Below, piece by piece: positions 2,447-19,649 of a DNA stretch of 38,241 nt. Both the position numbers and the translations under genes were made by a program. The notes below the pieces were generated by a model. That model was not told the DNA's origin and made no database searches. It worked only from the letters and a program-made list of their open reading frames with translations. The stretch comes from Candidatus Uhrbacteria bacterium (lineage in GTDB: Bacteria > Patescibacteriota > Patescibacteriia > UBA9934). Positions within the stretch are counted from its first letter, which is position 1. Each line of letters begins with the position of its first letter. The stretch covers positions 1-38,241 of the forward strand of contig CALRGY010000011.1 of assembly GCA_943358395.1 (NCBI GenBank). The letters run 5' to 3'.

Positions 2447-4279
2447 TTACCGTTTAAGCACCTTCATGTACGCCTCGCTCGGAATCTCGACGCTGCCGAC
2501 GCCCATCGCTAACATCTTCTTCTTTCCTTTTTTCTGCTTCTCCAACAACTTCAGCTTTCGCGTAAAGTCGCCACCATATAATCCCGATGTCACATCTTTG
2601 CGCATCGCGGAAATGCGTTCACCGGCAACCACTTTCCCGCCGATCATCGCCTGGAGCTTGATAACGAATTGCTGACGAGGAATACTTTCTTTCAAAATTT
2701 CGAGCACCCGCCTGCCCACACGTTCTGCCTCGTTGCGATAAACGATCATCGCAAACGCATCCACGTTTTCATCGGCAACAGAAATATCTAATCGGCACAC
2801 ATCTGCTTCACGATAGGTAAATACTTCATAACTCATCGACGCATATCCGCTCGATGCCCCCTTCAGTTTATCATTAAAGTCGACGATGATTGCGGATAAT
2901 GGCAATTCATAATGAATGAGCGCACGCCCTTCAGAAAGATAATCGGTGTTGATGTAAATGCCCCGGCGATCCTGCGCTAGAGACATCACGTTCCCAATAG
3001 AATCAATCGGCGTAATAATATCGACCTTTGCCCACGGCTCGTCGATGTGATCAATGAAGCTTGGATCTGGGAGATCGAGTGCGCTTTTCACGGTGTCATA
3101 GGTCGAATGAGACGCATTCGACCGATAAACGTGATACGCCACGCTCGGCAACGTCACCACCAAATCAATTTCAAATTCTCTACTCAATCGCTCTTTCAAG
3201 ATCTCAAGGTGCAGCATCCCGAGGAATCCGCATCGGAATCCGTACCCGAGCGCCGGAGAATGCTCTGGTTCAAAAACAAGTGCAGCATCGTTCAGCTTCA
3301 AGCGATCCATCGCATCGCGCAATGAGCCGTATTCATCGCCCTGCGCTGGGAACACGCCAGCGAACACCATTGGCCGCACTTCGCGATACCCCGGCAACGG
3401 CACGACCCCCTCCGACTCCCCCTTCGTAAGGGGGAGAGCACTCGTCGTGATCGTGTCACCCACGCGACAGGCGCGAATGTCTTTTAAGCCTGTAACGATG
3501 TACCCGATCTGCCCGGTTTCTAATTCTTCCAGCGGAGAAAACTTTGGGGTCAGCGCGCCGATCTCGAGAATTTCCCCATCTGCATCTGTTGCCAATAATT
3601 TCAATTTGTCCCGTTTTTTAAATGTTCCGTCCATCACTCGCACATATGCCACAACGCCTTTGTAATCGTCGTACGCAGAGTCGAAAATAACGGCACGGGG
3701 TGGCTTTGATTCCGATCCTTCTGGCGAAGGAATGCGATCAATAATCACATCAAGCAATTCTCGAACCCCAGCACCCGTTTTCCCCGACACTTCCAAAATG
3801 GAATCCGGATCGCACCCAAGCAGCTTTACGAGCTCGGCTTTCCGAGTAGGGACATCAGCTGCCGGCAAGTCAATCTTGTTCAGCACCGGGATGATTTCAA
3901 GATTTTCTTCAACAGCGAGGTACAAATTCGCAATCGTCTGCGCTTGCACGCCTTGAGTTGCGTCGACGAGAAGCACCGCGCCATTCACCGATGCTAATGA
4001 TCGGCTCACCTCGTAGTTAAAGTCGATGTGTCCAGGGGTGTCGATCAAGTTCAGCGTGTAATCAACATCGCCCTTTTTCCACACCATCCGTGCCGGAGCA
4101 AGCTTAATGGTAATACCACGTTCGCGCTCAATATCCATGGAATCCAACACCTGATCCTTCATCACCCGCTTATCAATGGTTCCCGTCACCTCCAGCAACC
4201 GATCAGAAAGCGTCGACTTCCCATGGTCGATATGCGCAATAATGCAAAAGTTCCGAATATTCTTCTGAGGAACAGCCAT
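2447..4279 (-). CDS. lepA: Elongation factor 4 (LepA), ribosome back-translocase GTPase
   Basis: A translational GTPase acting on stalled or mistranslocated ribosomes. The G domain shows AHIDHGKST at 15-23, DTPGH at 80-84, NKID at 134-137 and the G5 region SGKTG near 166. The C-terminus ends in the LepA-specific basic tail (KQKKGKKKM, then GSVEIPSEAYMKVLKR). Length 610 is slightly above the usual ~600. The excess is a palindromic repeat read in frame at about residues 281-294 (ALPLTKGESEGVVP) between DTIT and LPGYREVRPMVFAG, where other LepA proteins have a short linker. A -10 box TACAAT lies 15 nt before the ATG. It heads the lepA-smORF-recJ-RNase H unit. Confidence 0.97.
   Translation of the reverse strand: MAVPQKNIRNFCIIAHIDHGKSTLSDRLLEVTGTIDKRVMKDQVLDSMDIERERGITIKLAPARMVWKKGDVDYTLNLIDTPGHIDFNYEVSRSLASVNGAVLLVDATQGVQAQTIANLYLAVEENLEIIPVLNKIDLPAADVPTRKAELVKLLGCDPDSILEVSGKTGAGVRELLDVIIDRIPSPEGSESKPPRAVIFDSAYDDYKGVVAYVRVMDGTFKKRDKLKLLATDADGEILEIGALTPKFSPLEELETGQIGYIVTGLKDIRACRVGDTITTSALPLTKGESEGVVPLPGYREVRPMVFAGVFPAQGDEYGSLRDAMDRLKLNDAALVFEPEHSPALGYGFRCGFLGMLHLEILKERLSREFEIDLVVTLPSVAYHVYRSNASHSTYDTVKSALDLPDPSFIDHIDEPWAKVDIITPIDSIGNVMSLAQDRRGIYINTDYLSEGRALIHYELPLSAIIVDFNDKLKGASSGYASMSYEVFTYREADVCRLDISVADENVDAFAMIVYRNEAERVGRRVLEILKESIPRQQFVIKLQAMIGGKVVAGERISAMRKDVTSGLYGGDFTRKLKLLEKQKKGKKKMLAMGVGSVEIPSEAYMKVLKR
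3404..3437. repeat. GC-rich palindromic element, in frame inside lepA
   Basis: Perfect 9-bp arms CTCCCCCTT (3416-3424) and AAGGGGGAG (3428-3436) around loop CGT, preceded by the conserved flank GACCCCCTCCGA. Read on the minus strand it adds about 11-14 codons to lepA without a frame change. Confidence 0.85.
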
Positions 4280-6324: not shown

Positions 6325-7464
6325 CTATCCATCAATCACCCCACTCCCAATCAACTCCTCCCCCCGATAAAAAGCGATGAATTGCCCCGGGGCAACGGCG
6401 CGTTGGGGGGAAGTGAAGTGAACCACGAATTCGGTCGCGATCTCCCCCTCCTTACGAAGGAGGGGGTGGGGGGAGGTTTCAATCACACACTCCGCCAAAG
6501 GCTGACGATAACGAATACGCGCCATAATTGGTTCCCCGACTGCGCGATCGATTGCGCCCGGAACCGTTTCGCTGATATTCGTTGCGATCAAATCTGATCG
6601 GAACAGTGCTGGATCATCGGCACCGATGGCGACGACGACCTCATTTGTTTCAGGGTTCCGATCGACGACGTACAACGGCGTGCCACCGCCAATGCCCAAG
6701 CCGCCACGCTGACCAATAGTGTAGAATTCGAATCCACGATGTGTGCCAAGAATCTTTCCGTCCGTCGTTACAATATTTCCCTCATGTGGCGGAATGCGTG
6801 CCTCCAAAAACTGCTGCATATCCACTTGGCCAACGAAACAAATGCCTTGGCTGTCCTTCTTTTCCGCAACCGGAAGTTTATGTTCGCGGGCGATTTCCCG
6901 AACCCGAGATTTCTGTAAGTCTCCGATCGGAAACAGTGATCGCTGCAGTTGATCCTGATTCAACTGACATAAGAAGTACGTCTGATCTTTGTTCTCGTCG
7001 ATGCCGGTGAGTAGATGCGCAAAACCTCCTTCATCATCAATTCTCCTTGCGTAATGCCCTGTTGCGATGAAATCACAACCGAGTTTATCCGCTTCTTTCA
7101 AAAACAGATCGAATTTCATGTACTTATTACACAAAACATCCGGGTTTGGCGTGCGCCCAGCCTTATACTCATCGATCATGTACTCGTACACTTTTGCCCG
7201 ATACTGCTCTTCGAAATCGAAGGTGTAAAACTTCAGCCCCAGCTGCCCTGCCACCCGCATCGCATCACGCCGCTCCCTCCGCCACTCGCATTCTTCAGGG
7301 TCTGGATGTGAACCCTCCCCCCTTTCAAGGGGGAGTTGGAGGGGGTCTGCACTCCAATTCTTCATAAATCCCCCAATCACCTCATACCCCTGTTCCAACA
7401 ACAACACCGCAGCAACACTGCTGTCGACTCCGCCAGACATTCCGAGTAAAACACGTTGCTTCAT
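6325..7464 (-). CDS. mnmA: tRNA-uridine 2-sulfurtransferase MnmA
   Basis: Makes 2-thiouridine at position 34 of tRNA Lys, Glu and Gln using ATP and a persulfide. The PP-loop SGGVDSS is at 10-16. Catalytic cysteines C112 (NPDVLCNKYMKF) and C209 (SQGICFVG) are both present, as are the tRNA-binding DQTYFL (160-165) and GHYARR. Length 379 is above the usual ~360. The excess comes from two palindromic repeats read in frame: residues about 39-51 (ADPLQLPLERGEG) in the loop after FMKNW, and 328-342 (TSPHPLLRKEGEI) in the C-terminal barrel. Both sit outside motifs. The gene stands alone, bounded by repeats upstream and the palindromic operator downstream. Confidence 0.96.
   Translation of the reverse strand: MKQRVLLGMSGGVDSSVAAVLLLEQGYEVIGGFMKNWSADPLQLPLERGEGSHPDPEECEWRRERRDAMRVAGQLGLKFYTFDFEEQYRAKVYEYMIDEYKAGRTPNPDVLCNKYMKFDLFLKEADKLGCDFIATGHYARRIDDEGGFAHLLTGIDENKDQTYFLCQLNQDQLQRSLFPIGDLQKSRVREIAREHKLPVAEKKDSQGICFVGQVDMQQFLEARIPPHEGNIVTTDGKILGTHRGFEFYTIGQRGGLGIGGGTPLYVVDRNPETNEVVVAIGADDPALFRSDLIATNISETVPGAIDRAVGEPIMARIRYRQPLAECVIETSPHPLLRKEGEIATEFVVHFTSPQRAVAPGQFIAFYRGEELIGSGVIDG
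6437..6483. repeat. Palindromic element, in frame near the 3' end of mnmA
   Basis: Perfect 10-bp arms CCCCCTCCTT (6444-6453) and AAGGAGGGGG (6457-6466) around ACG, followed by GTGGGGGGAGG. It encodes about residues 328-342 of MnmA. Confidence 0.8.
7312..7350. repeat. Palindromic element, in frame near the 5' end of mnmA
   Basis: CCCTCCCCCCTTTCAAGGGG followed by GAGTTGGAGGGGGTC. The stem is imperfect by one pair. It encodes about residues 39-51 of MnmA, between FMKNW and a DPEECEWRR segment. Confidence 0.8.
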
Positions 7465-7476
7465 ATATTCACATGC

Positions 7477-7529
7477 ACCCCTCTAATCCCCCTCCTCCCC
7501 CTAACCCCTCCATAAATGGAGGGGAGTTC
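7477..7529. repeat. Palindromic element, intergenic copy 1 upstream of mnmA
   Basis: 9-bp arms CCCCTCCAT (7505-7513) and ATGGAGGGG (7516-7524), with CT-rich left flank CCCCCTCCTCCCCCTAA and right end AGTTCAC shared with other copies. Confidence 0.75.
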
Positions 7530-7554
7530 ACAATCGAGATCCATCTTTTTGCTT

Positions 7555-7607
7555 CTCTCCCCCATTCATGGGGGAGTAAGGAGGGGGCGGGAGTCGGAGG
7601 GGGTTCA
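7555..7607. repeat. Palindromic element, intergenic copy 2, abutting the RluA-type stop codon
   Basis: 9-bp arms CTCCCCCAT (7557-7565) and ATGGGGGAG (7568-7576), then a doubled right flank GGAGGGGGCGGGAGTCGGAG and the end GTTCAC. On the minus strand the GTGAA end supplies the TGA stop (7605-7607) of the pseudouridine synthase gene. Confidence 0.8.
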
Positions 7608-8995: not shown

Positions 8996-9041
8996 AGGGG
9001 AGGGATCGGAGAAGTGATGAGAGTCTTTGGAGGGGGTTGTG

Positions 9042-9170
9042 ATGGAGGAAACAGGAATCGGGACAGCCCAGATCCTGAGGCTTTGCCGAAGGATCTCGAA
9101 CGCAGTCTACGGCGAGACGATCGAACGACTGGCGGAGACCCTTCGTATGTACTCAGGGTCTAGAGCTTGA
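9042..9170 (+). CDS. Possible 42-aa protein downstream of the NUDIX terminator
   Basis: ATG 9042 to TGA 9170, preceded by GGAGGGGG at 9029-9036. The product is mainly amphipathic helix: MEETGIGTAQILRLCRRI followed by SNAVYGETIERLAETLRMY. The codons 9070-9100 coincide with a 31-bp repeat that occurs inverted at 9433-9463, so part of the ORF is repeat-derived. It lies beyond a strong terminator, so it would need its own promoter, which I do not see. It may be a real small protein, a gene remnant, or a chance ORF. Confidence 0.3.
   Translation: MEETGIGTAQILRLCRRISNAVYGETIERLAETLRMYSGSRA
9070..9100 (+). repeat. 31-bp repeat, copy A (inverted partner at 9433-9463)
   Basis: AGATCCTGAGGCTTTGCCGA followed by AGGATCTCGAA. 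It is itself palindromic (AGATCCT ... AGGATCT). The partner differs at 3 of 31 positions. Confidence 0.8.
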
Positions 9171-9392
9171 GGGTACTCAATTTCAAACAGGGTACTTTGC
9201 TAACGCGAATGATTCGCAAGAAGAAATCGCTGGTCGATACTGATGATGACAACCCAGGACAGGTGACGACGTATGCCATCGATTGCGCACTGCTACATCT
9301 ATTTAAGACACTTTTCATCGATTTCACGATCATGTCATGGCACAATGCGCTGTTGAAAAACGTCGAAAATGGGGGGTGCCTTCGCAAATCGC

Positions 9393-9430
9393 GACCCCCT
9401 CCGACTCAGCCTCCTCCTTACTCCCCCGCT
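9393..9430. repeat. Partial palindromic element
   Basis: Left flank GACCCCCTCCGACT and a CTCCTTACTCCCCC half-stem are present; the right arm is replaced by copy B of the 31-bp repeat. Confidence 0.55.
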
Positions 9431-9432
9431 CA

Positions 9433-9463
9433 TTCGAGGTCCTTCGGCGGAGCCTCAGGATCT
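9433..9463 (-). repeat. 31-bp repeat, copy B
   Basis: On the minus strand: AGATCCTGAGGCTCCGCCGA followed by AGGACCTCGAA. Inverted relative to copy A, 332 bp apart. Confidence 0.8.
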
Positions 9464-9474
9464 GGCTGCCGTCA

Positions 9475-9516
9475 TTCACGTCCAGGTTCACATCCAGGTT
9501 CACATCCGGATTCACA
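9475..9516 (+). repeat. 12-bp tandem repeat, about 3.5 units
   Basis: Units TTCACGTCCAGG, TTCACATCCAGG, TTCACATCCGGA, then TTCACA. The unit starts with the TTCAC end found on the palindromic elements. Confidence 0.85.
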
Positions 9517-9550
9517 ACCCACTCAAAAGACTCACCTCACTTCCCACGCA

Positions 9551-9591
9551 CGACCCCCTCCTTACTCCCCCTTTGCAGGGGGAGGGTTCAC
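9551..9591. repeat. Palindromic element, intergenic, downstream of clpC
   Basis: CGACCCCCTCCTTA, arms CTCCCCCT (9565-9572) and AGGGGGAG (9577-9584), then GGTTCAC. It lies about 50 bp beyond the clpC stop. Confidence 0.8.
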
Positions 9592-9642
9592 GTTCCATTC
9601 CCACCACCCTCCAAAGACTCCCCTCACATCCGATCACGTCCC

Positions 9643-15083: not shown

Positions 15084-17870
15084 CTATCCCCCATGACACT
15101 TTTTAAACTTCTTCCCACTTCCACAAAAACACGGTTCGTTCGGACGGGGTTTCTTTGAGGGCTCTGCTGCGGTGGATTGCTTTGCTACACTCGCAATGAC
15201 GGCAGATTCTTGTTTCTGTGCTGGCACGTCGATAACAGTGGTGGTGCCGGAAGATTGTTGGGATAAGAATTGGGCGGCTTGACGGATAAGGTGGGGAGCG
15301 GCTTCGAACATTGCTTTTGCTGCAACAGATTGATCGATGATTTTGAAAAGATTGTACGCAACTTCGCGACCAGTTTCTGAGCGCATGGTGTTATACAGGC
15401 GATACGATTCGCGTTTGTATTCAACAAGCGGGTCGCGCTGGGCATAGCCTTGCAGCCCAATGGTACGACGAAGATACGTCATGTCATCCAAGTGCTGCAT
15501 CCATAAGGTGTCGTTCGCGCGAAGCAAAATGTTGCGCTCAAGCGTCATCAGGTGCTTTGCATCACCAAACTTTTCGATTGCGCCACTATACGCCCGCTGA
15601 ATAGCGCCATTTACAACATCAATAACACGCGTGCGCTGATGTGCAAGCTGTTCCTTGTCGATGGACAACGTTGCAAGCTCATCAAGAATCGCAGCAGACT
15701 CAGTATCTTCCAACTTCACGATGGTACTCAAACTCTCCACAATTTCTTTTGGATCCCAATCAGCTTTTGCAACCTCGGCGTCTTCGACAAAATCTTTGGG
15801 CACATCGGCCTCCGCTTTGCTTGTATGAAAGAACACCACACGCTCAACCTCTTTCTCAATGATTGCAGCAACAAGCTCGTGCGCCTTTTCCTCGCTCTTC
15901 ATCACCTCACGACGTTCGCTGTACACGGCAGTACGATGCTTATTCAATACATCATCGTATTCCAACACATGCTTACGCGTATCAAAATGATGCCCCTCAA
16001 CACGTTGCTGCGATTTCTCGAGCGCCTTTGTGACCATCTTGCTCTCAATCGGCGTAGCATCGTCAATACCCAACTTGTCCATCATGCCTTTCACTCGATC
16101 GCTTCCGAAGATACGCATCAAATCATCATCGAGTGATACGAAAAACTGCGTGCTTCCCGGATCGCCTTGGCGGCCAGCACGCCCACGAAGCTGATTATCA
16201 ATACGACGTGATTCGTGACGCTCTGTTCCGATGACATGCAAGCCACCGAGCTTCTTCACTTCTTCTGCCACTGCAGCATCTACCGGGTTCCCACCGAGCA
16301 AAATGTCTACACCACGGCCTGCCATGTTCGTGGCAAGCGTTACCGCACCCTTGCGACCAGCCTGGGCGATAATCTCTCCTTCACGCTCGTGATTCTTTGC
16401 GTTCAATGTGTTGTGAATAATGCCCGCCGCCGTTAAAAACTTCGACAACGATTCATTCTTCTCAATAGACACCGTTCCAATAAGAACAGGCTGTCCGATG
16501 GTATTCAAACGCCTCACTTCCTCTACCACCGCCATCCACTTCCCTGTTTCATTTTTATAAATCCTGTCTGGCAAATCTTTTCTGTTCGCCGGGTGATTCG
16601 TAGGAATTGTTACGACATCAAGAGTATAAATCTTCGCAAACTCCTCTGCTTCCGTATTTGCGGTTCCCGTCATACCCGCAAGCTTTTCGTACATGCGGAA
16701 ATAATTCTGGAACGTAATCGTTGCCATGGTTTTGCTTTCGCGCTGAATCTTTACACCTTCTTTTGCTTCAATCGCCTGGTGCAAACCCTCCGAGTATCTG
16801 CGGCCTTCCATAATGCGCCCCGTAAACTCATCAACGATCTTTACCTCACCGTTTTGGACGACGTAATCACGATCCACTTTGAACAATGCGTGCGCTTTTA
16901 ATGCCTGCTCGGCATGATGCACCATTGCTAAACCCTCTTCGTAAAGATTACTCACATTGAGCAATCGCTCAAGCTTCTGTAAGCCATTCTCTGTAAATGT
17001 GCTCACTCGCATTTTTTCGTCGATATTGAAATCCTCTTTCTCTGCACACTGTGTAATAACATCCGCAAACCGATAATATAAATCTGCAGACTCTTGTGCT
17101 GGGGCAGAAATAATCAACGGCGTGCGCGCTTCGTCGATTAAAATAGAATCGACTTCGTCAACAATGGCATAGTGCAATCCGCGTTGCACCACATCTTCGG
17201 CACGGCTTGCCATGTTGTCGCGCAAGTAATCAAAACCAAACTCGTTGTTTGTACCGTACGTAATATCTGCCGCATATGCCATGGGTCGGCTCACGGGGCG
17301 CAGAGAATCCGAAGCAACGTGGAATGACGCCGTGGTTTCCGCGCCTTCTGCCGGCGCATCGACCTTAAAGTCAGCATCGTAAACGTACCCACTTTCATGT
17401 TGAATGCACCCAACCGTTAACCCAAGTGATGCAAAAACTTTACCCATCCATACCGCATCACGCTTTGCGAGATAATCGTTGACGGTAACGACGTGAACGC
17501 CCTTTCCGACAAGCGCATTCAGGTACGTTGGCGCGGTGGCCGTCAACGTCTTCCCTTCACCGGTGCGCATTTCCGCAATGGCGCCCCGATGCAGCGCAAG
17601 CCCACCCATCATCTGCACATCAAAATGCCGTTGCCCTAACACACGTCTACTCGCCTCCCGCACCACAGCAAATGCTTCATGCGTTATGGAATCGAGCACC
17701 TCGCCTTTCGCTAAACGCTCCCGAAATTCAACAGTCTTCGCCTTCAACTCATCCGCAGAAAGCGCCTTCATCACCTCCTCAAACCCCCCAATTTTCTGAA
17801 TATCTTTCTGAAAACTCTTAATCACTTTTGCGTTCGGATCCCCAAAAATCGTGGAAAATATTGATGCCAT
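15084..17870 (-). CDS. secA: Preprotein translocase ATPase SecA
   Basis: The Sec motor that pushes unfolded proteins through SecYEG at the membrane. Key blocks: MRTGEGKT near residue 105, VDEVDSILIDEARTPL, TGRIMEGRRYSEGLHQAIEA, MAGRGVDI and the RGRAGRQGDPG helicase motif. The C-terminus carries the zinc SEC-C motif (PNEPCFCGSGKKFKKCHGG). Length 928 is normal. The frame also opens with GTG at 17879, but ATG 17870 (MASIFSTIFGDP) fits the family. A weak CATACT lies 10 nt upstream. A linker of about 45 residues before SEC-C is rich in Ser/Thr/Ala and poorly conserved. The upstream interval carries the DUF559-repeat unit. Confidence 0.97.
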   Translation of the reverse strand: MASIFSTIFGDPNAKVIKSFQKDIQKIGGFEEVMKALSADELKAKTVEFRERLAKGEVLDSITHEAFAVVREASRRVLGQRHFDVQMMGGLALHRGAIAEMRTGEGKTLTATAPTYLNALVGKGVHVVTVNDYLAKRDAVWMGKVFASLGLTVGCIQHESGYVYDADFKVDAPAEGAETTASFHVASDSLRPVSRPMAYAADITYGTNNEFGFDYLRDNMASRAEDVVQRGLHYAIVDEVDSILIDEARTPLIISAPAQESADLYYRFADVITQCAEKEDFNIDEKMRVSTFTENGLQKLERLLNVSNLYEEGLAMVHHAEQALKAHALFKVDRDYVVQNGEVKIVDEFTGRIMEGRRYSEGLHQAIEAKEGVKIQRESKTMATITFQNYFRMYEKLAGMTGTANTEAEEFAKIYTLDVVTIPTNHPANRKDLPDRIYKNETGKWMAVVEEVRRLNTIGQPVLIGTVSIEKNESLSKFLTAAGIIHNTLNAKNHEREGEIIAQAGRKGAVTLATNMAGRGVDILLGGNPVDAAVAEEVKKLGGLHVIGTERHESRRIDNQLRGRAGRQGDPGSTQFFVSLDDDLMRIFGSDRVKGMMDKLGIDDATPIESKMVTKALEKSQQRVEGHHFDTRKHVLEYDDVLNKHRTAVYSERREVMKSEEKAHELVAAIIEKEVERVVFFHTSKAEADVPKDFVEDAEVAKADWDPKEIVESLSTIVKLEDTESAAILDELATLSIDKEQLAHQRTRVIDVVNGAIQRAYSGAIEKFGDAKHLMTLERNILLRANDTLWMQHLDDMTYLRRTIGLQGYAQRDPLVEYKRESYRLYNTMRSETGREVAYNLFKIIDQSVAAKAMFEAAPHLIRQAAQFLSQQSSGTTTVIDVPAQKQESAVIASVAKQSTAAEPSKKPRPNEPCFCGSGKKFKKCHGG

Positions 17871-17917
17871 AGATTGCACCAGTATGCCTGATTTGGGGGG
17901 AATTCACAAATAATCCC

Positions 17918-18307
17918 TCAAGCTCCACCCCCTCCTACTCCCCCTTGTAAAGGGGGAGAGATCGCATCCTGAATTCGGATTAAGACCCCATCGAGATTCT
18001 TCATAACCTCATCGTTCGTGAATCGAAAAACCTGAATTTCCATAGCGAGCATATATGCGTCGCGCTCTCGATCGTATGCGATAGCCAAAGAATCAGTATG
18101 GGACTCTCCGTCAACTTCGATAACCATTTGATGCATCGGAGAACAGAAATCAACAATGTATGGACCGATGCCGAATTGACGACGAAACTTTATGCCAAAG
18201 CTTCTCTTCCGTAACGCATTCCAAAGTTTCTTTTCTGCGCGCGTCATGTTCCCACGAAGCTCACGACGACGCTCCATGCTCCACCGGGGATTAAACAGTG
18301 TTGTCAT
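17918..18307 (-). CDS. DUF559 (Vsr-like) endonuclease
   Basis: 129 residues from ATG 18307 (MTTLFNPRWSMERRRELRGN). The pattern is that of DUF559/MTES_1575, a PD-(D/E)XK nuclease related to very-short-patch repair endonuclease: TRAEKKLWNALRKRSFG, FRRQFGIGPYIVDFC with D53, IEVDGESH with E64, D66 and H70, DRERDAYML, and VFRFTNDEV. The ORF ends by reading through a palindromic repeat (SPPLQGGVGGGGA). Its frame is also open upstream through a second, inverted repeat (RPPPTPPCKGGEF). It sits alone between murC and secA, cutting an otherwise tight gene row. DNA cleavage activity and mobility are inferences. Confidence 0.85.
   Translation of the reverse strand: MTTLFNPRWSMERRRELRGNMTRAEKKLWNALRKRSFGIKFRRQFGIGPYIVDFCSPMHQMVIEVDGESHTDSLAIAYDRERDAYMLAMEIQVFRFTNDEVMKNLDGVLIRIQDAISPPLQGGVGGGGA
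17926..17961. repeat. Palindromic element, 3' side of the DUF559 gene
   Basis: CACCCCCTCCTA, arms CTCCCCCTT (17938-17946) and AAGGGGGAG (17950-17958), loop GTA, then AG. It encodes the last residues of the DUF559 ORF and is inverted relative to the copy at 18321. Confidence 0.85.
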
Positions 18308-18320
18308 AATCAGTTTCAGA

Positions 18321-18361
18321 GTGAACTCTCCCCCTTTACAAGGGGGAGTCGGAGGGGGTCG
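18321..18361. repeat. Palindromic element, 5' side of the DUF559 gene and 3' end of murC
   Basis: GTGAACT, arms CTCCCCCTT (18328-18336) and AAGGGGGAG (18340-18348), loop TAC, then TCGGAGGGGGTC. On the minus strand its stem-loop supplies the murC stop codon TAA (18336-18338). Confidence 0.85.
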
Positions 18362-19649
18362 CGATAAGATTCCTCGCCACCACATCCACATCCCCTGCCC
18401 CCATCACAATAATCACGTCGCCTTCGCGAATGAGCGATCGGAGTTGCGCCTCTGCATCGGCAAGATCCTTTGCGTAATATCCTTCTTTTGGTGCGTTGTT
18501 CGACTTCATCGCCGCATCAAGAAGCGTTTTGCTGGATACTGCGGCATCGGCGTTCTCCGTTCTCCCAAGCACACCGTAGATTTCCGACAATATTACAACA
18601 TCAGCCCCACCAAACGATTGCGCGAACTCGTTGAACAGTTCCTTTGTGCGATTATGCTGGTGTGGTTCAAAGAGAAGCACAATCCGATTCTCTGAAAAAA
18701 ACTCTCTCGCACCTTCTAGTGTTCCCCGTACTGCCGTTGGGTGATGCCCATAATCCGAAATCACGGGGCACCCCTTGAATTCTCCCACGCGTTCAAATCG
18801 CCGCCAGATACCCTGAAATGATTCGAGGGACTTGAGTGCAACTGCGTCATCAATTCCATATTCACGCGCAACACTCATCGCCGCCGATGCATTCATTCGA
18901 TTAAACGCACCCGGCATCTGTAACGCCACTTCACCAATCACCGATGCATCAAACGGAATCATCGATGCCCCTTCAAGTCTCATCGAATTCGAATCTTCCC
19001 GATTGATGAACGTCTTCCCCTGTGTTTTATTCACCAACTCTTGAAACGTGGCAACAATATGATCGATATCGCGATACACATCTAAATGATCCTCTTCAAT
19101 ATTCGTTATCGCCGTCGTTTCAGGCCAGAGCTTCACCATCTTCTGCTTGTACTCATCTCCTTCGATAATAAGAATGTCACTCTTCCCAACAGCAACGTTT
19201 CCGTATTTCCATCCTGGAACGATTGATCCTACGAATACTGTTGGATCGAGTCCGGCGTCGATAAAGATCTTTCCCGTCATTGCCGTTGTGGTCGACTTTC
19301 CGTTTGTGCCGGTAATGCAAATGGTTCGATAGTCTTTGGATAATTCTCCAAGGAAGTCGAAGTGGCCCATTTGTGGAATATTTCTCGATGCCGCTTCGAC
19401 GCGCTCAACATTCTCTTCGATTGCTGCCTCCGTATATACGATGAGATCAGTATTCGATGGAATATTTTTTGCATCATGTCCGATCGAAACTGAAATGCCA
19501 AGATCGATAAGACCGTCAGTGATCATCGACTGCTTCGCATCACTTCCAGAAACCGTAACACCTTTGGCATGCAAAAACTTCATCACGCCACTGATTCCAA
19601 TTCCTCCAGCACCAATACAATGAACGTGACGGTATGATTGCAACTGCAT
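18336..19649 (-). CDS. murC: UDP-N-acetylmuramate--L-alanine ligase MurC
   Basis: Adds L-alanine to UDP-MurNAc, the first peptide step of peptidoglycan synthesis, in the cytoplasm. GAGGIGISG is at 13-21, the ATP loop TGTNGKST at 113-120, EDHLDVY mid-protein, DYGHHPTAV in the C-terminal domain and FEPHQHNRTKELF after it. At 437 residues it is slightly shorter than E. coli MurC. Its last residues PSDSPL and the stop codon come from the palindromic element, so the natural C-terminus was probably replaced by the insertion. It is followed by the DUF559 unit, and preceded by hpf with a 3-nt gap and murB before that. Confidence 0.96.
   Translation of the reverse strand: MQLQSYRHVHCIGAGGIGISGVMKFLHAKGVTVSGSDAKQSMITDGLIDLGISVSIGHDAKNIPSNTDLIVYTEAAIEENVERVEAASRNIPQMGHFDFLGELSKDYRTICITGTNGKSTTTAMTGKIFIDAGLDPTVFVGSIVPGWKYGNVAVGKSDILIIEGDEYKQKMVKLWPETTAITNIEEDHLDVYRDIDHIVATFQELVNKTQGKTFINREDSNSMRLEGASMIPFDASVIGEVALQMPGAFNRMNASAAMSVAREYGIDDAVALKSLESFQGIWRRFERVGEFKGCPVISDYGHHPTAVRGTLEGAREFFSENRIVLLFEPHQHNRTKELFNEFAQSFGGADVVILSEIYGVLGRTENADAAVSSKTLLDAAMKSNNAPKEGYYAKDLADAEAQLRSLIREGDVIIVMGAGDVDVVARNLIATPSDSPL

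Follow-up and report, generated by a model that had tools for sequence, protein, structure and literature searches.

In a 38,241-nucleotide stretch of DNA from a Candidatus Uhrbacteria bacterium (assembly GCA_943358395.1, contig CALRGY010000011.1; hereafter the window, part of a genome of 912 kb), a gene of DUF559, a widespread protein family of unknown function, is bracketed by two inverted copies of a GC-rich palindrome, and this unit is probably a mobile element whose spread depends on the DUF559 protein. The palindrome is the known BoxC/PIT/TM intrastrand-triplex element, which the first-pass annotation of the window had overlooked; noticed in the 1990s, this triplex-forming repeat has had no known origin or enzyme. 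Its pairing with DUF559 gives the repeat a testable role and supplies a candidate role for the protein family. Linkage of the gene to the repeat and mobility of the unit are both well supported by sequence comparisons.

Structure of the unit

The unit lies between murC and secA and is composed of the following features, the gene being its sole open reading frame (ORF) in Pfam searches and in a survey of units:

17918..18391, minus strand: DUF559 (Vsr-like) nuclease ORF (Pfam PF04480, E=5.6e-30, 103.9 bits; domain at about 17960-18274)
17924..17960, plus strand: terminal element on the 3' side of the DUF559 gene (inverted repeat and mirror-palindrome scan)
18326..18362, minus strand: terminal element on the 5' side of the DUF559 gene, inverted, supplying the last residues and the stop codon of MurC (inverted repeat, mirror-palindrome scan, end of the MurC ORF)

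An inverted-repeat search places 37-nt arms at 17927-17963 and 18323-18359, inverted, 95% complementary and on either side of the ORF, so that the nuclease gene between inverted GC-rich palindromes seen in the first-pass annotation is borne out. The same is true of its remark that the frame reads into both copies: it is open across the two elements, starting with RPPPTPPCKGGE and ending with SPPLQGGVGGGGA. From the head onward the flanking element reads ACCCCCTCCGA-CTCCCCCTT-GTA-AAGGGGGAG; the copy at 17924..17960 has the head CCCCCTCC, the stem CTCCCCC and the loop TTGTAAA, with its head directed outward from the unit.

The DUF559 protein is predicted to be a nuclease of the Vsr/EDxHD fold. 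Structures similar to its AlphaFold2 model (mean predicted local distance difference test, pLDDT, of 71, with most of the domain core at 75-94) include 3hrl, I-Bth0305I and Vsr; the Foldseek probabilities are 1.0 to 3r3p and 0.99 to 1vsr. The family member YcjD was earlier classed with the PD-(D/E)XK nucleases, and its profile retrieves Vsr (PMC1189080). The protein appears to be kept functional by purifying selection, because in related pairs of DUF559 genes nonsynonymous divergence (dN) is far below synonymous divergence (dS) wherever dS is computable.

The palindromes are BoxC/PIT/TM elements

The 5' head of each element is the mirror of the pyrimidine arm of its stem, as in CCCCCTC with CTCCCCC, CCTCCCC with CCCCTCC, or CCTCTCCC with CCCTCTCC, and head and stem are joined by linkers such as GA, TAA, TAG, TG and similar. 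A perfect 7/7 mirror is present in 104 of 227 flanking elements, whereas 500 permutations gave 26 on average and 39 at most. Flanking elements also favour the mirror over a direct repeat by 117 to 12, which rules out a head that simply repeats the stem. A head that mirrors the pyrimidine arm is the design of an intrastrand triplex, the one published as BoxC/PIT/TM.

BoxC was described in Escherichia coli, and later as PIT and TM; there are 23 copies in strain K-12 and elements in more than 260 genomes, some as inverted pairs, the E. coli element forms a triplex in vitro, and no mobility genes were found near these repeats, DUF559 not being mentioned (Holder et al. 2015, PMC4666352). Our elements resemble them in the mirror head, the hairpin, the length of about 36 nt, the occurrence of inverted pairs and, in E. 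coli, identical letters. They are likewise multi-copy and dispersed, with 72 elements in the 335 kb of another genome (G351) and about 30 strict sites in the genome that holds the window. The difference is that the published elements have no assigned enzyme or mobility, whereas those described here bracket a nuclease gene, lie in frame within genes and form part of a unit. An Rfam search with the elements gave no match.

Two variations of the design were observed. In other phyla (e.g. loci L090, L121 and L144) heads often carry A where the mirror predicts T, as in CCTCACCC with CCCTCTCC or CCACCCC with CCCCTCC, a consistent departure from the mirror rule at one letter. Moreover, the units L001, L025 and L031 have swapped end types, the head CCCCCTCC with stem CTCCCCC against the head CCTCCCCC with stem CCCCTCC, and share the loop, a combination that any copying mechanism must account for.

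Linkage of DUF559 genes to inverted elements

In the family to which the window belongs, all 14 DUF559 genes, from 9 of 23 genomes, are bracketed, and the pair is inverted in 14 of 14 units. These are mostly 426-497 bp long (one has 570 bp), heads-out and heads-in forms both occur, and the loop letters, e.g. ATAAAT, TTACTAA or TTCCCAA, are usually common to both ends of a unit and differ between units. The second DUF559 gene of the window's own genome also stands between inverted elements, with trxA and trxB as neighbours by our reading of the flanks.

The enrichment of flanking palindromes at DUF559 genes, which the first-pass annotation had put forward as a check, extends beyond this family. 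Windows shifted along the same loci (n=697) served as control, giving a 95% level of 11.5 and a 99% level of 14, and counts were made at 12.0. Flanking arms in inverted orientation exceeded the 95% level of these controls at 83 of 91 DUF559 genes in the phylum sample and at 46 of 74 named DUF559 genes from many phyla. In one genome five of five DUF559 genes are bracketed, against 55 of its 824 other ORFs, and random sequence and the shifted controls show almost no bracketing. Since units are present in complete isolate replicons of Deinococcus and Synechocystis, an assembly artefact is ruled out as their source.

Element copy number depends on DUF559

A second check concerned the number of elements per genome, which was counted in the phylum sample of 380 genomes with a pattern specific for the common element types that gives almost no hits when reversed. 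DUF559 is patchily distributed, being present in 101 of these genomes. Two or more element copies occur in 50 of the 72 genomes with a strong DUF559 match, in 2 of the 29 with a weak match and in 8 of the 279 without one. These counts correspond to an odds ratio of 77 (p=1e-34), which is still 77 after stratification by family (z=5.4), the p-values being indicative because genes and genomes within each sample are related. Within the genus of the window, the sole species lacking DUF559 (G003) has the lowest element hit count.

Signs of mobility

Empty sites, which the first-pass annotation had suggested looking for, turned up in Deinococcus and in cyanobacteria, and related units occupy different junctions of one operon, the hpa operon of Deinococcus. 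The junction between an oxidoreductase gene and hpaB measures -4, 12, 33 and 35 bp in four Deinococcus species and 487 bp in D. proteolyticus, where it contains a full unit with long terminal inverted repeats; a truncated copy of the unit lies at the same junction in D. wulumuqiensis. In strain NW-56 a unit of 79% identity lies instead at the junction of the oxidoreductase gene with hpaE, which offers no intergenic room in the Deinococcus species compared. Among cyanobacteria, a DUF1156 gene that is intact in Nostoc and Planktothrix is interrupted by a unit on a plasmid of Synechocystis. Moreover, when units at different loci are compared, DNA similarity frequently ends near the element ends. 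The in-frame solo insertions in lepA and mnmA and the amplified gene-less derivative, described below, are further signs of movement.

Elements without the gene are also arranged in pairs. In G351, neighbouring elements less than 120 bp apart are inverted in 11 cases and direct in 1, an arrangement like that of REPINs, the inverted doublets of repetitive extragenic palindromic (REP) sequences. A search of these gene-less pairs for decayed DUF559 found no relic, and their origin as decayed DUF559 units was dropped. On two contigs of G351 (C16 and C10), inverted doublets and single elements lie within long open frames resembling conserved genes, one cysteine desulfurase-like and one like a CarA-type amidotransferase; the host proteins may carry element-encoded insertions.

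The murC-secA junction and other elements of the window

The neighbours of the unit and the remaining elements of the window are these:

18336..19649, minus strand: murC, upstream neighbour, ending within the element (Mur ligase domains)
15084..17879, minus strand: secA, downstream neighbour of DUF559 (SecA domains)
3402..3438, plus strand: solo element, in frame within lepA (mirror-palindrome scan, LepA comparison)
6442..6482, minus strand: solo element, in frame, mnmA 3' end region (mirror-palindrome scan, congener comparison)
7315..7349, minus strand: solo element, in frame, mnmA 5' end region, adding 13 residues relative to congeners (mirror-palindrome scan, congener comparison)
7491..7590, unstranded: gene-less inverted doublet of a B-type element (ATAAA loop) and an A-type element (ATGAA loop) (mirror-palindrome scan, genome search)
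9551..9584, plus strand: solo element, intergenic (strict hairpin pattern, mirror-palindrome scan)

The murC frame runs on into the copy at 18326-18362, where the TAA of the element loop ends it, which agrees with the proposal that its last residues and stop codon come from the element; its C-terminus is ...VARNLIATPSDSPL here and ...VARNLVR in two congeners. The description of murC-secA as a tight pair does not hold generally, since among five congeners the junction contains DUF559 in three and unrelated small ORFs over 0.9-1.3 kb in the other two (G001 and G003). The latter are therefore ruled out as clean empty sites; in both, the small ORFs are followed by a hairpin of the ACGCCGCCTC...GAGGCGGCGT type. 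The junction looks like an insertion hotspot, because unrelated small ORFs and a hairpin occupy it where DUF559 is absent. A PADLOC scan gave a single weak match, to DpdF.

By the full definition of an element, a mirror head plus a hairpin, the window holds eight complete copies, that is six beyond the flanking pair and not about eight as first counted, besides a few degenerate ones. The core pattern has 7 matches in the window against 0.08 expected from shuffles, and over the whole genome the strict hairpin pattern has 22 forward and 25 reverse hits against 0 for the reversed control. Composition or chance as the origin of the elements is ruled out by the shuffles, the reversed control and random sequence.

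The lepA element is missing from most relatives, namely from a 97%-identical LepA copy in the same assembly and from G001, G003 and G004. Its net gain is only 18 nt, and therefore about 21 target bases were apparently replaced at the insertion. The second lepA copy, with 92% identical DNA, lies on its own short contig (G000:C26:1-1810) and is probably a piece of a closely related strain in the assembly. Another species, G002, has a different element-like insertion (ITPLLTKEGLGEVV) at the position occupied in the lepA of the window genome, either by independent hits or by a switch of type. The first mnmA element is absent in all three congeners compared. The doublet at 7491-7590 has both end types of unit L001 with the gene missing, and about 17 more copies of this gene-less derivative, which is roughly 125 nt long, are scattered through the genome at identities of up to 98%. 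At window positions 9011-9630, a stretch that has no Pfam match is enclosed by two pairs of inverted repeats from a different family, 9068-9100/9433-9465 (91%) and 9011-9042/9599-9630 (81%).

The ycjD gene of Escherichia coli

Both parts of the system, a DUF559 gene and TM elements, are present in E. coli K-12. TMECO no. 9 (1351239-1351204) adjoins ycjD (1351407-1351760), the DUF559 gene of this species, and the gonococcal member NGO0050 (PDB 3hrl) adjoins elements as well; the E. coli locus differs from the units described above in having no clean two-sided unit. Between sapF and fabI, ycjD and a TM element are found in at least 3362 of 5426 E. coli genomes, and the three other strains inspected have an RND/TetR efflux set instead of ycjD; this replacement operon rules out the locus as an empty site. 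No link of DUF559 or ycjD to palindromes, transposition, BoxC or triplexes was found in the open literature, outside which most subscription papers lie.

Mechanism and alternative explanations

We propose that the arrangement of element, DUF559 gene and inverted element, roughly 430-500 bp in all, would be a minimal mobile genetic element with intrastrand-triplex (BoxC/PIT/TM) ends, and that DUF559 would move this unit and, in trans, gene-less doublets and single elements. The parts behave accordingly, the complete unit like an autonomous element, the doublets like forms that lack the gene and the single elements like relics. On the likeliest route, DUF559 may nick or cleave DNA either at elements in folded form or at target sites; repair might then join or copy in the element DNA, broken or single-stranded, with some target bases lost and none duplicated. 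The protein would in this way catalyse the spread of both unit and elements, and the recurrence of the pairing across bacterial phyla makes it the leading candidate at present for the enzyme behind the spread of BoxC-type repeats. Break and repair would fit better than a classical transposase, because in lepA about 21 target bases seem to be replaced and none duplicated; the exact route is put forward tentatively. Target duplications were absent at the lepA, mnmA, murC and hpa sites, in sequences whose divergence is too great for a stringent comparison.

Several observations weigh against this proposal. Among the named DUF559 genes, 28 of 74 fail the inverted-arm test, and the family therefore also has members outside the bracketed arrangement. 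Elements are numerous in some genomes with no or weak DUF559 (G167 with 13, G337 with 9, G090 with 69 and G328 with 15), from which the gene may have been lost or be missing in the assembly. No clean target duplication or exact strain-level junction was obtained. In E. coli, just one flank of ycjD bears a published element, and elements are also present in strains whose ycjD locus is taken up by other genes.

DUF559 could alternatively be a free-standing homing endonuclease gene, which spreads by cutting and gene conversion into homologous alleles and settles between recombination-prone elements that another agent spreads. The closest characterised fold is indeed that of the homing endonuclease I-Bth0305I, and the same junction is occupied in several species (murC-secA, trxA-trxB, the hpa operon and a Nitrospira site). 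Homing alone is nevertheless insufficient, because it leaves unexplained that element number depends genome-wide on DUF559, that the ends match each other within a unit, that gene-less derivatives bear the ends of the resident unit and that related units occupy non-homologous junctions; we regard it as unlikely. More improbable is that DUF559 has been domesticated for house-keeping, as a nuclease that clears the triplexes or hairpins formed by the elements but does not move them, the adjoining elements being its binding sites or operators. Purifying selection, the widespread and one-sided ycjD of E. coli and the analogy with domesticated REP-associated tyrosine transposases (RAYTs) speak for such a role, but the patchy distribution within family and phylum, the multiple copies per genome at different sites and the empty sites speak against it. 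That the palindromes are ordinary transcription terminators or composition effects round a small gene is scarcely credible, since, although they are hairpins and frequently lie at gene ends, they have a mirror head, lie in frame within lepA and mnmA, are nearly absent from shifted controls and random sequence and seldom bracket other ORFs of the genome, and earlier studies, cited in PMC4666352, found neither promoter nor terminator activity for PIT elements.

On the proposal of a DUF559-dependent mobile unit, we incline to a wider reading, in which such units would form a class of mobile elements, present in many phyla, with a Vsr/EDxHD-fold nuclease as sole enzyme and intrastrand triplexes as ends, and would be the source of BoxC/PIT/TM repeats including those of E. 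coli, YcjD being a remnant or a domesticated form.

Comparison with known systems

Both the repeat and the protein family had been described before; what seems to be new is their association and the mobile unit. The nearest parallel is the REP/REPIN-RAYT (TnpA-REP) system, where an enzyme gene likewise lies between inverted palindromes that have many non-autonomous copies and inverted doublets. This parallel, drawn in the first-pass annotation, stands for the architecture (ends in inverted orientation, single copies, inverted doublets and the amplification of a derivative without the gene), while catalysis by DUF559 is its conjectural part. RAYT is a Y1 HUH transposase, whereas DUF559 has a predicted Vsr/homing-endonuclease fold, and REPs have a GTAG or CGTC tag at the hairpin foot where our elements have a C-rich mirror head with short linkers.

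I-Bth0305I (PDB 3r3p), an EDxHD/Vsr-like homing endonuclease, shares with DUF559 the fold, weak sequence similarity and membership among selfish nuclease genes. DUF559 units differ from homing endonuclease genes in lacking an intron or intein and in occupying a wide range of unrelated sites, two junctions within the hpa operon among them. I-Bth0305I is intron-borne and is not known to be bracketed by palindromes, and we know of no repeat family associated with it. Insertion sequences of the DDE type with their miniature inverted-repeat transposable elements (MITEs) differ in having a DDE transposase between the ends, where here DUF559 is alone. Rickettsia palindromic elements are palindromic repeats that lie in frame within conserved protein-coding genes, like the solo elements of lepA and mnmA; their sequence is unrelated, and to our knowledge they have no bracketing nuclease.

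By membership the unit is thus neither a RAYT, nor a DDE insertion sequence, nor a classical homing gene, and by architecture it is REP/RAYT-like; judged against the open literature, it would be a new class of mobile element whose plan parallels that of REP/RAYT. Should this hold, a REP-like family of repeats could be driven by a nuclease with the homing-endonuclease/Vsr fold that acts on a DNA triplex or hairpin.
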